The notes below the pieces were generated by a model. It was not told where the DNA came from, made no database searches, and was given only the letters and a program-made list of their open reading frames with translations. Positions 1,270 through 51,569 of a stretch of DNA of 51,569 nucleotides are shown in pieces; the stretch's first letter is position 1; every line of letters starts with the position of its first letter. The stretch is from a virus. The position numbers and the translations under genes were made by a program. Where the stretch lies: positions 1 to 51,569 of IMG/VR virus record IMGVR_UViG_3300047333_000128; one strand, given 5' to 3'.

Positions 1270-1280
1270 AATAAAGAAGA

Positions 1281-1297
1281 CCCCTCACTTGGAGGGG
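1281..1297 (-). terminator. intrinsic terminator overlapping a stop codon
   Basis: A perfect 6-bp stem (CCCCTC / GAGGGG) with a 5-base loop. Read leftward it is followed by a T-rich tract (TCTTCTTTATTTT); rightward there is no T tract. The stop codon of the leftward gene at 1285-1458 lies inside the stem. Confidence 0.6.
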
Positions 1298-1458
1298 CCG
1301 TGGATGTTTGCGACCGTCTTTCCTTTTTGCGCTAGTTCGAGTCCGAGGAGTAGCATTGTCACGTAGGCTTTTTGATCGATGCAGTGGACTTCGCTTTGAC
1401 TCGTGAGCAGCTTCGTTAATCTGCGTTTGGCTTGTGCGTGCGTTTCTGTTTGCTTCAT
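1285..1458 (-). CDS. small hypothetical protein from a leaderless transcript, 57 aa
   Basis: A 57-aa basic, soluble frame on the minus strand. No domain recognised. It is credible because its ATG sits exactly where the transcript of a near-consensus sigma70 promoter (1465-1492) would begin, and because its stop lies in an intrinsic terminator. It therefore looks like a self-contained single-gene unit, expressed without a Shine-Dalgarno sequence. Genes of this layout in phages are often early, host-directed proteins, but nothing in the sequence proves that here. Confidence 0.6.
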   Translation of the reverse strand: MKQTETHAQAKRRLTKLLTSQSEVHCIDQKAYVTMLLLGLELAQKGKTVANIHGPSK

Positions 1459-1464
1459 GAGTTA

Positions 1465-1492
1465 AGTATACTCATAAGCAAACAGTTGTCAA
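1465..1492 (-). promoter_or_regulatory. sigma70-type promoter giving a leaderless mRNA
   Basis: On the minus strand, TTGACA (1487-1492), a 16-base spacer and TATACT (1465-1470). Six bases separate the -10 box from the ATG at 1458, so the predicted +1 is the A of the start codon. A GTTGTCAAC motif covers the -35 box and recurs in the promoter region at 37232-37240. Confidence 0.75.
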
Positions 1493-2882: not shown

Positions 2883-2946
2883 GGTGAGATGACTCCCTTA
2901 TAGTTAGCTGCACCGTTAGTAGATGGTTGCGGTGTTCTGCTACTAT
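2883..2946. promoter_or_regulatory. repeated control cassette, copy A
   Basis: Contains GGTGAGATGACTCC (2883-2896), a 16-base motif GTTAGTAGATGGTTGC (2915-2930) and, ten bases further, TGC plus TACTAT (2938-2946), an extended -10-like box. Both longer blocks recur in the same order at 9430-9523. The TAGATGGTTGC, 10-base gap and TAC(A/T)AT order is also found directly before the helicase gene on the minus strand at 36579-36605. Read leftward, the -10-like core also gives TATAGT, so the cassette may promote in both directions. Confidence 0.55.
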
Positions 2947-3188
2947 AACTTCCCTTCGCGCTTCAGGGTTTCCAACCATGCTGGCGCGAGCAGCGCAGCG
3001 GCATGATCCTCGCAGACGATCCGGCCGTCGCGGAGCATCAAGAGTCGGTCGAATCCCCCGCACGTGGCGCACGACCATCGCGCGATGATCGACCGGCAGA
3101 GGGCGATGAATCGGACATGCGGGCAGCGGCCTGTCGCCGGTCTTCGATCTCGCGCGATACATTCGTCGCAACAGCTTGCGTCATCCAA
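2943..3188 (-). CDS. putative zinc-ribbon protein, 81 aa
   Basis: The frame contains several cysteine pairs: CCDEC near the N-terminus, a single Cys at about residue 22, CATC at about 40-43 and CEDH at about 58-61, as in a small zinc ribbon. The TTG at 3188 gives a 151-base overlap with the upstream membrane-protein gene. A later start would keep only the CATC...CEDH half. The overlap segment is GC-richer than its surroundings. Either this is a genuine dual-coding stretch or the start is internal; the downstream half is the more secure. Confidence 0.45.
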   Translation of the reverse strand: MDDASCCDECIARDRRPATGRCPHVRFIALCRSIIARWSCATCGGFDRLLMLRDGRIVCEDHAAALLAPAWLETLKREGKL

Positions 3189-3448
3189 ACTACTATCCCC
3201 GCAGCGAGCAATCCACTGTAGCCGAAGTGCTTATAGACGATTGCGCAGCCTGCAATCATGACGACCATTGGTCCCCAAGGAATGCGGAGCGTTGTGAACG
3301 AGTAGTTGCGGCGCATGCGAAGACCTGCGTATTTCCAATCGGTCGGGATCATGTCGCCGGTGCGAAAGACGCCAATCTTCGACATGTCGGGGGCGATGAA
3401 CGTCGCCTCTAAGTAATCGGGTATCGTGCATGGATAGTGCGATGCCAT
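3038..3448 (-). CDS. two-pass membrane protein, 136 aa
   Basis: Residues about 1-55 are soluble. Two hydrophobic segments follow at about 58-74 (WGPMVVMIAGCAIVYKH) and 78-97, then a basic, Ser/Arg-rich hydrophilic tail. No family recognised. The N-terminal half reads like a small globular domain facing the cytoplasm. The ATG lies 6 bases after a TGA-TATAGT extended -10 box, so the mRNA should be leaderless; no Shine-Dalgarno is possible. It is divergent from the gene at 3467. Confidence 0.65.
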   Translation of the reverse strand: MASHYPCTIPDYLEATFIAPDMSKIGVFRTGDMIPTDWKYAGLRMRRNYSFTTLRIPWGPMVVMIAGCAIVYKHFGYSGLLAAGIVVWMTQAVATNVSREIEDRRQAAARMSDSSPSAGRSSRDGRAPRAGDSTDS

Positions 3449-3466
3449 TGTGCTACTATATCACCC
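3449..3466. promoter_or_regulatory. symmetrical divergent promoter, both transcripts leaderless
   Basis: Only 18 bp separate two start codons facing away from each other. Rightward: TGC + TACTAT (3451-3459), then 7 bases, then ATG (3467). Leftward: TGA + TATAGT (3463-3455), then 6 bases, then ATG (3448). Both are extended -10 elements sharing the same base pairs, with no clear -35 boxes, and neither gene can have a Shine-Dalgarno sequence. Confidence 0.75.
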
Positions 3467-4060
3467 ATGTCGAGTCTAAGCCGCCTTGAGATTCGAGAGA
3501 TACTTCGTTGTCTCTCGCGCGATTGCGAACCTGAAGTTGTTGCAAAACTTCAATCGATGCTCGGAACAACTACGCCGACTTTTGAAATCGTCGTTGATTC
3601 GCGCATGCCTGAAAATACGTTTGCATTTGTTGACAAGCAAAAACCAAAGCCGACCTTTGAATTCGACATGCCGCGTCAAGCCTACGGTCATCTAAACGAT
3701 GAAGAGTTTGAAGGGCTCTACATGTTACGCCGCGCGGAAGCGGAGCGTCAATTCAAACGTTTGCAAGGTGAATCGTTCGAGTCACTTGCACCATTACGTT
3801 TGCCTGTAGAATACAAAATCGAACGCACTGCGAAGGGAGAGAAAAACAGCGTAGGCGACACTTGTGTCGATCTGACGCCGGAAGGCTTTTCCATTTTTCA
3901 GTGCAGCAATGGGCACGGGTACGTTGCTAACAATCCTGCTGTTCGCGGTTGCACGACATGTGCGGTCGCGGGCAACAACGGAGCAAACAGAGAAGAAGCG
4001 GTTGCTGCAAGAACTTCCGTTGATCGAGGAGCTATTCCCGGTCACGATTCCAATTGGTGA
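3467..4060 (+). CDS. hypothetical protein with C-terminal Cys motif, 197 aa
   Basis: No family recognised. The N-terminal 40 residues look like a helical oligomerisation segment. The centre is charged and helical (residues about 75-115). Near the C-terminus are CSNGHGY (about 152) and CTTC (about 168-171), which could bind one metal ion. The ATG at 3467 is preferred over the in-frame GTG at 3437 because the promoter lies between them. The gene leads a tightly packed rightward operon to 5518. Confidence 0.65.
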   Translation: MSSLSRLEIREILRCLSRDCEPEVVAKLQSMLGTTTPTFEIVVDSRMPENTFAFVDKQKPKPTFEFDMPRQAYGHLNDEEFEGLYMLRRAEAERQFKRLQGESFESLAPLRLPVEYKIERTAKGEKNSVGDTCVDLTPEGFSIFQCSNGHGYVANNPAVRGCTTCAVAGNNGANREEAVAARTSVDRGAIPGHDSNW

Positions 4061-9429: not shown

Positions 9430-9523
9430 GGTGAGATGACTCCTTAGTGTGCCCAGGTGGGCGGTGCTGTATGAACCTACTAACCTGTTTCGTTAGTAGA
9501 TGGTTGCCGTCCTGCGCTACAAT
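9430..9523. promoter_or_regulatory. repeated control cassette, copy B
   Basis: GGTGAGATGACTCC (9430-9443), an inverted repeat CTACTAAC/GTTAGTAG (about 9475-9499), GTTAGTAGATGGTTGC (9492-9507) and TACAAT (9518-9523), with the same 10-base gap as in copy A. GCCCAGGTGGGC lies between. Rightward it would start the late structural transcript at about 9530; leftward it faces the DUF932-like gene. ATCTACTAAC recurs inverted at 9627-9636. Confidence 0.55.
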
Positions 9524-36578: not shown

Positions 36579-36605
36579 ATTGTAGCAGAGGACTGCAACC
36601 ATCTA
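36579..36605 (-). promoter_or_regulatory. repeated promoter module, copy C, leaderless
   Basis: On the minus strand TAGATGGTTGC (36605-36595), a 10-base spacer ending in TGC, and TACAAT (36584-36579), then 7 bases to the ATG at 36571. Same motif and spacing as copies A and B. There is no consensus -35, so TAGATGGTTGC may be the recognition element of an activator or a special sigma factor. Confidence 0.65.
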
Positions 36606-36719
36606 CCGCGAAGGAATGGCTCGCTCGCCGTCCCGCCCTACTAGACGCGGGGTGCCGTCTCAAGGGGAGCGGTACGAGTTTGTTTGGGGATCACTGAACG
36701 CACTCGCGGTGAGCAACAA

Positions 36720-50226: not shown

Positions 50227-51569
50227 AATCGAAGCGGCGGCGCGTCGAGCACTCGCCCAGAACACGAAGTACGGTTACGCGGAAGATAAAATCTACGTTG
50301 ACGGTGCTCCGTTCAGCTTCGAGAATCACAACTATCTCGTAGGGCTGTATCAGGATCACCATCGCAACATTGTGATCGAGAAAAGCGCGCAGATGGGTGC
50401 AAGCGTGTACGCACTCGCGACTGCGTTCTTTGTATGTGACTCGATCAACAAGAACGTGATCTACTTCTTTCCGACTGATACGGACGTTCAAGACTTCTCA
50501 AAGACGCGTGCGAATCCGATGATCGACGATTCGCCACATTTGCGTTCGATCACATCGACTAAAGACTCTCTCGGTTTGCGCCGCGTCAACAAAGCGTGGC
50601 TGTACTTTCGAGGTATGAAGTCGTCGATTGCAATGAAGTCGATTCCCGGTGACTATCTCATCATGGACGAACTTGATGAAGTTAGCGAAGCATCGGAAGC
50701 ACTTGCGGATCAACGTTTGAATCACTCGTCTCTCAAATGGCGTTTGAAGCTATCGACGCCAACGTTTGAAGGTTACGGTATTGATCGAGAATTCAAAGCA
50801 TCGGATCAACGCTATTGGAATCTCGTATGCCGCAAATGCAACACGTACAACATCGTCGAGAAAACTTTTCCTGACTGCGTACGCGAAGTGTCGGATACGG
50901 AAGCGTATCTTATCTGTTCAAACTGCAAAAGCAATCTTGATTCGCAGTACGGTGTTTGGGTACCTGACAATCCCAAAGTCAACCGTGTGCATGGCTACCA
51001 CATGTCCGGTCTATATTCGCATTTCCTTGACCTAAGTGACCTGATGGCAGAGTACCGCACCGGCAGACGTCGTGCGGAATTCATGCGTTCCAAACTTGGC
51101 ATACCGTACACTGCAGCGGATCAACGTATCACGTATGGTATGGTGCAAGCATGTCAAACCGGTGGCGAGATGCACATCGATTCGCGCACGTACATGGGCG
51201 TCGATCAAAAAGGCAACGAACTGCACATCGTCATTCGCAAACCAAACCGCATTACCGGTAAGCATGACATCATTCAAATTTGCAGAGTACGCACGTTTCC
51301 TGAACTCGATCAATTCATGCGCATATACGACGTCAACACGTGCGTCATCGACGGCATGCCGAATCAGCATAGCGCACGAGACTTCGCATCGCGATTTCCT
51401 GGGCGTGTCTTCTTGTGCTACTATCAGGATACGCAGCGAGGCGATTACTCGTGGCAAGAACCTCGCTCGGGCGGTGAAGGCGGCGACCATTGGGAAGTCA
51501 AGGCTAACCGCACGGAAGCACTCGACGCGATGTATGAACAGGTCATACGTCAAGAGATAACGCTTCCGA
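50213..51569 (+). CDS. terminase large subunit, GpA-like, partial
   Basis: Open to the window edge: 452 codons, lacking the C-terminal part. ATPase: a deviant Walker A EKSAQMGAS (about residues 56-64) as in lambda gpA, Walker B YLIMDELDEV (about 147-156). Two zinc-type pairs CRKC (about 207) and CSNC (about 241) as in GpA-family proteins. Nuclease: MGVDQKGNELHIV (about 323-335) gives the first catalytic Asp, and CVIDGMPN (about 379) the second; the final motif is off the window. It cuts concatemers and packages DNA into the prohead. Confidence 0.9.
   Translation, partial: MTQSEIEAAARRALAQNTKYGYAEDKIYVDGAPFSFENHNYLVGLYQDHHRNIVIEKSAQMGASVYALATAFFVCDSINKNVIYFFPTDTDVQDFSKTRANPMIDDSPHLRSITSTKDSLGLRRVNKAWLYFRGMKSSIAMKSIPGDYLIMDELDEVSEASEALADQRLNHSSLKWRLKLSTPTFEGYGIDREFKASDQRYWNLVCRKCNTYNIVEKTFPDCVREVSDTEAYLICSNCKSNLDSQYGVWVPDNPKVNRVHGYHMSGLYSHFLDLSDLMAEYRTGRRRAEFMRSKLGIPYTAADQRITYGMVQACQTGGEMHIDSRTYMGVDQKGNELHIVIRKPNRITGKHDIIQICRVRTFPELDQFMRIYDVNTCVIDGMPNQHSARDFASRFPGRVFLCYYQDTQRGDYSWQEPRSGGEGGDHWEVKANRTEALDAMYEQVIRQEITLP

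Follow-up and report, generated by a model that had tools for sequence, protein, structure and literature searches.

Two divergent genes of an uncultured phage begin only 18 bp apart, and this locus raises the question of how so short a segment could serve both of them. The window, namely the whole stretch of DNA analysed, is the 51,569-nt IMG/VR record IMGVR_UViG_3300047333_000128. The start codons face apart, the left ATG at 3448 on the minus strand (CAT at 3446–3448) and the right ATG at 3467–3469 on the plus strand. The features of the locus are as follows.

3038–3448, minus strand: left gene, coding for a small membrane-type protein of 136 aa, first in the leftward cluster
3449–3466, 18 bp: gap between the divergent start codons, putative bidirectional promoter core, letters TGTGCTACTATATCACCC
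3451–3459, plus strand: rightward extended -10 TGC-TACTAT (TGC 3451–3453, TACTAT 3454–3459), 7 nt to ATG 3467
3455–3463, minus strand: leftward extended -10 TGA-TATAGT (TGA 3463–3461, TATAGT 3460–3455), 6 nt to ATG 3448
3460–3466, minus strand: GGGTGAT, complementary to the anti-Shine-Dalgarno (anti-SD) sequence, about 11 nt from the left ATG, overlapping the leftward TGA
3467–4060, plus strand: right gene, 197 aa, CxxC-type C-terminal part, first in the rightward cluster

The initial annotation was exact in its letters, its coordinates and its 18-bp spacing, with TGC-TACTAT and TGA-TATAGT at 7 and 6 nt from their ATG codons. The -10 boxes of both strands share 5 bp within the 7-mer TACTATA (TAnnnTA). 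The promoter had been called symmetrical, which holds for the overlapping -10 boxes in TACTATA; because the non-core remainder of the gap is not palindromic, the term has to be limited to this core. Promoter scoring finds no convincing -35 element for either direction of the gap.

Related IMG/VR contigs were found via the major capsid protein. Among phage records and viral contigs, relatives of the left and right genes were found in none but the contig L003 (record G001), which was reached through this capsid protein. Judged by alignment, the right gene is real, since L003 carries an orthologue with 43% identity in which Met1 is aligned. GTG 3437 was rejected as an alternative right start: it has no SD sequence, it overlaps the left gene, and the orthologue Met aligns to ATG 3467. 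No SD sequence is present for the right gene in this phage or in L003. The right gene is preceded by a -10 box at 7 nt, has no SD sequence and has a start codon backed by an orthologue, as is looked for in a leaderless gene. The left gene looks real, and two membrane helices are predicted in its product; its match to the positional counterpart in L003 is weak (about 21% identity, not significant by BLASTP). A -10 box with a 6-nt spacing is present upstream of its start, an anti-SD match lies 11 nt upstream, and the start has no alignable orthologue. Neither protein has a regulator match in Pfam or PHROG, and the word "switch" in the initial annotation is unsupported at a locus in which neither gene resembles a regulator. 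Structure predictions of the two proteins reached mean pLDDT values of 49 and 61, and a fold search was ruled out because such models are too poor. A same-strand ORF in another frame at 2943–3188 (minus), which encodes 81 aa and is Cys-rich with CxxC pairs, shares about 150 nt with the left gene; the overlap may be genuine or may reflect a frame error in the contig.

Double leaderless initiation from a bidirectional promoter is the most likely reading of these letters, and we hold it with reasonable but not strong confidence. This preference follows from a genome-wide 6–7-nt spacing and from the same habit in relatives. As a sigma70-type promoter, TACTATA with TG upstream on each strand would allow host RNA polymerase to dock in two mutually exclusive orientations, and transcription would begin at about 3466/3467 on the plus strand and at 3448 on the minus strand. 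The predicted +1 positions, 3466 (plus) and 3448 (minus), come from the 7-bp rule and are 18 bp apart. Because the start codons occupy the predicted transcription starts, both mRNAs would be leaderless or carry a 1-nt leader, and for their translation ribosomes would recognise the AUG at the 5' end, with no need of a Shine-Dalgarno sequence. A single minimal element would thus launch two divergent gene clusters. The arrangement itself, its low chance frequency, the recurring spacing in this phage and its relatives and the start of the right gene are shown by the sequence analysis; that the gap acts as a promoter both ways, where precisely transcription begins, that translation is leaderless and what regulatory purpose there may be are what we infer. 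The overlapping symmetrical -10 boxes and leaderless starts of the initial annotation are supported, the predicted +1 being the A of the left ATG (3448) and, on the right, 3466/3467; the same spacing is seen in other genes and in relatives.

The predicted geometry resembles a known one. In the bidirectional promoters described so far, a distance of 18 bp between the two transcription starts is the most frequent, as it brings -7 and -11 into reciprocal pairing (PMC10268837, PMC12825309). With its predicted starts, the gap matches this 18-bp class, the commonest class of bacterial bidirectional promoters. Like the symmetrical -10 promoters described by Warman, Grainger and colleagues (PMC10268837, PMC12825309), it has a TAnnnTA-type core, predicted starts 18 bp apart, a reciprocal -11A/-7T pair in which A3455 and T3459 serve both strands, and a rightward -18 T (T3448). 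Unlike in those promoters, position -18 of the leftward start carries G (plus-strand C3466) and not T, which is frequent but not essential in the 18-bp class. Furthermore, both start codons coincide here with predicted starts, which has not been reported at both starts there, and the phage promoter is a predicted one. The two genes had also been claimed to be strictly co-regulated. At characterised bidirectional promoters, however, one polymerase binding event blocks the other; basal RNAs are mutually unaffected, but when one direction is strongly activated, the RNA of the opposite direction can be repressed (PMC12825309). Because the polymerase orientations exclude each other, the two genes would share an element without being strictly co-regulated.

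One recognised mark of leaderless genes in bacteria is a TANNNT motif some 12 bp upstream of the start codon (PMC3160421). Leaderless mRNAs are spared by kasugamycin (PMC5230787). Like leaderless genes of Actinobacteria, Deinococcus-Thermus and others, the two genes here have a -10 box ending 6–7 nt before the ATG, AUG starts and no well-placed SD sequence. However, one promoter usually serves one gene there, whereas here two divergent genes would depend on one element, and the majority of the genes of this phage retain an SD sequence (PMC3160421 for the comparison). The statement that no such double-leaderless switch is known in a phage was too strong: RACE has placed the 5' ends of both the cI and the cro mRNA, a divergent pair in the telomere phage PY54, at their AUG (PMC4488713), as is predicted for the pair described here. 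In PY54, however, the intergenic region measures 116 bp, the promoters are separate, and there are an operator and repressor genes (PMC4488713), in contrast to the 18-bp gap described here, where a single core would be shared and no gene is recognisable as a regulator. Bidirectionality by -10 symmetry, leaderless genes and a double-leaderless divergent phage pair are already known. Their combination within 18 bp would be unusually compact. A single -10 core used in both directions, with a start codon at each of its predicted transcription starts, would be new; no described case of this fusion was found in the open-access literature searched, a body that leaves out most subscription journals.

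Other genes of the phage should share the 6–7-nt spacing if the two starts of the locus are leaderless, and this spacing is observed. Hexamers with 5/6 matches upstream of gene starts lie at 6 or 7 nt in three cases and at no other distance between 0 and 29. Four promoters reach a full sigma70-like score of 8.5 or more at up to 30 nt from a gene start, and all of them lie at 6–7 nt, namely at 3467 (plus), 3448 (minus), 36571 (minus) and 1458 (minus), against about 0.09 expected by chance from other ATG/GTG codons (Poisson P ~3e-6), with the cut-off set once the 3467 and 3448 sites, two of the four matches, were already known. As these two make up the locus under study and the threshold is post hoc, the independent support consists of the other two.

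1465–1492, minus strand: TTGACA-16-TATACT, 6 nt before ATG 1458 of a 57-aa gene without an SD sequence; top-scoring promoter of the window
36579–36587, minus strand: TGC-TACAAT, 7 nt before ATG 36571 of an SNF2-type helicase gene without an SD sequence; high-scoring promoter

The former belongs to a compact unit at 1279–1492 (minus), in which this promoter, a putative leaderless 57-aa ORF and a terminator-like hairpin with a T run follow one another.

Comparison with related phages, which the initial annotation had suggested, bears out the right gene with its start codon and perhaps also the length of the gap, but not both -10 boxes. The gap of L003 is also 18 bp if its left gene begins at GTG 1426. 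Its rightward box, TAAGTT, is weak and keeps the 7-nt register, and the leftward -10 box is absent in L003, the one relative holding the locus. Elsewhere, TTGAC-N17-TAnnnT-like promoters end 6–7 nt before the GTG at L003:7405 and, in a second record (G002), before the ATG at L007:6741. The helicase orthologue of G001 (L014:3370) has TGG-TACACT 8 nt before its ATG, that of G002 is without a comparable -10 box, and the distances from -10 box to start in a fourth record (G003) form no peak. The phage and its relatives thus repeatedly place -10 boxes 6–8 nt before start codons. A capsid alignment made for host assignment gave one MAG contig with 34% identity and no usable host call.

A different reading, which we consider rather unlikely, is that the right gene alone is leaderless here, while the left gene uses a promoter inside the right gene and the SD-like GGGTGA; the leftward TGATATAGT would then be a by-product of -10 symmetry beside GGGTGA. 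L003 fits this reading in that it keeps the rightward -10 register and not the leftward one, and in that an alternative left start, TTG, has GGGTGA 4 nt upstream, within the right gene. In the phage itself, the pairing of GGTGAT with the anti-SD sequence amounts to -9.7 kcal/mol. However, GGGTGAT is a poor SD sequence for the left ATG because about 11 nt is too far, and no nearer start could use it because the left reading frame is ended upstream by TGA. Within the right gene, two leftward promoter-like sites (d = 273 and 163) score equal to or above the leftward gap site, but high-scoring sites within genes are frequent by chance. Moreover, the left site lies exactly 6 nt from its ATG and ranks 3rd among extended -10 sites, the right site ranking 38th (about 103,000 positions on both strands), by a simple score with a sigma70 matrix built on general knowledge.

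Coincidence offers another account, in which AT-rich letters in a tight gap merely look like promoters and the true promoters lie elsewhere, for example in a phage-specific system tied to a 28-nt element. The weak -35 elements, the weak conservation in L003 and the fact that this dispersed element adjoins other gene starts would agree with it. We nevertheless judge it quite improbable. In shuffled or composition-matched 18-bp gaps, -10-like hexamers with at least 4/6 matches at 6–7 nt on both sides occur in 1.3–1.8% of trials, but the full arrangement (both boxes at least 4/6 at 6–7 nt, one of them 5/6, and a TG on each strand) has a joint chance of only 2e-5 to 4.5e-5 per gap. The genome-wide distance peak at 6–7 nt also speaks against coincidence, as does the lack of any rightward site better than 3451–3459 within 350 bp.

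The 28-nt element ATTGTAGCAGAGGACnGCAACCATCTAC occurs in three near-copies, 86–89% alike, adjoining gene starts, and is possibly a phage-specific promoter or regulator site.

2919–2946, minus strand: copy of the 28-nt element
9496–9523, minus strand: copy of the 28-nt element
36579–36606, plus strand: copy of the 28-nt element

The final letters of the element in the opposite reading are TGCTACaAT, and at 36579 these make up the -10 of the helicase gene. Identical GGAGTCATCTCACC sites at 2883–2896 (minus) and 9430–9443 (minus) lie downstream of element copies and just 5' of the starts of the genes at 2881 (minus) and 9425 (minus, DUF932). The DUF932 gene and its element copy flank a perfect hairpin, CTACTAAC-CTGTTTC-GTTAGTAG, at 9476–9498. 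TGCTACTATA was rejected as a genome-wide repeat: it is exact only at 2938 and 3451, occurs at 51416 with one change in a coding region, and is absent in the relatives.

Double leaderless initiation from one core has a wider implication. Tentatively, and with slightly less than even confidence, we suggest that a lone TAnnnTA core and two start codons would form a complete minimal divergent unit, with two leaderless mRNAs made from one promoter, neither leader nor ribosome-binding site, and an output set only by the direction of polymerase docking, and that this geometry may recur in unrelated phages. If so, promoter bidirectionality and leaderless translation would be united in 18 bp, near the smallest possible two-gene divergent unit, which would provide a clean natural test of polymerase-orientation competition with no confounding leaders. 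Repeated leaderless starts, as predicted in this phage group, would be relevant to start-codon annotation and hint at a leaderless-tolerant host.

A scan of viral contigs for a double extended -10 with a double ATG gave ORFs of at least 40 codons on both sides in 8 of the 120 matches listed (6 distinct), compared with none of the 120 matches listed for a spacing control (Fisher p = 0.003, or 0.014 for the distinct ones). The support for recurrence is weak, since one ORF looks spurious in several of these candidates and no pair passed a stricter start test among the matches listed. An unrelated viral contig (L068) holds what is, among the matches listed, the best other candidate for a double-leaderless bidirectional promoter. 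At L068:1599–1622, CATGCTGGTATAATACCAGATATG is flanked by divergent ORFs that are 63 and 54 codons long, has no SD sequence on either side and contains a palindromic TGGTATAATACCA core.
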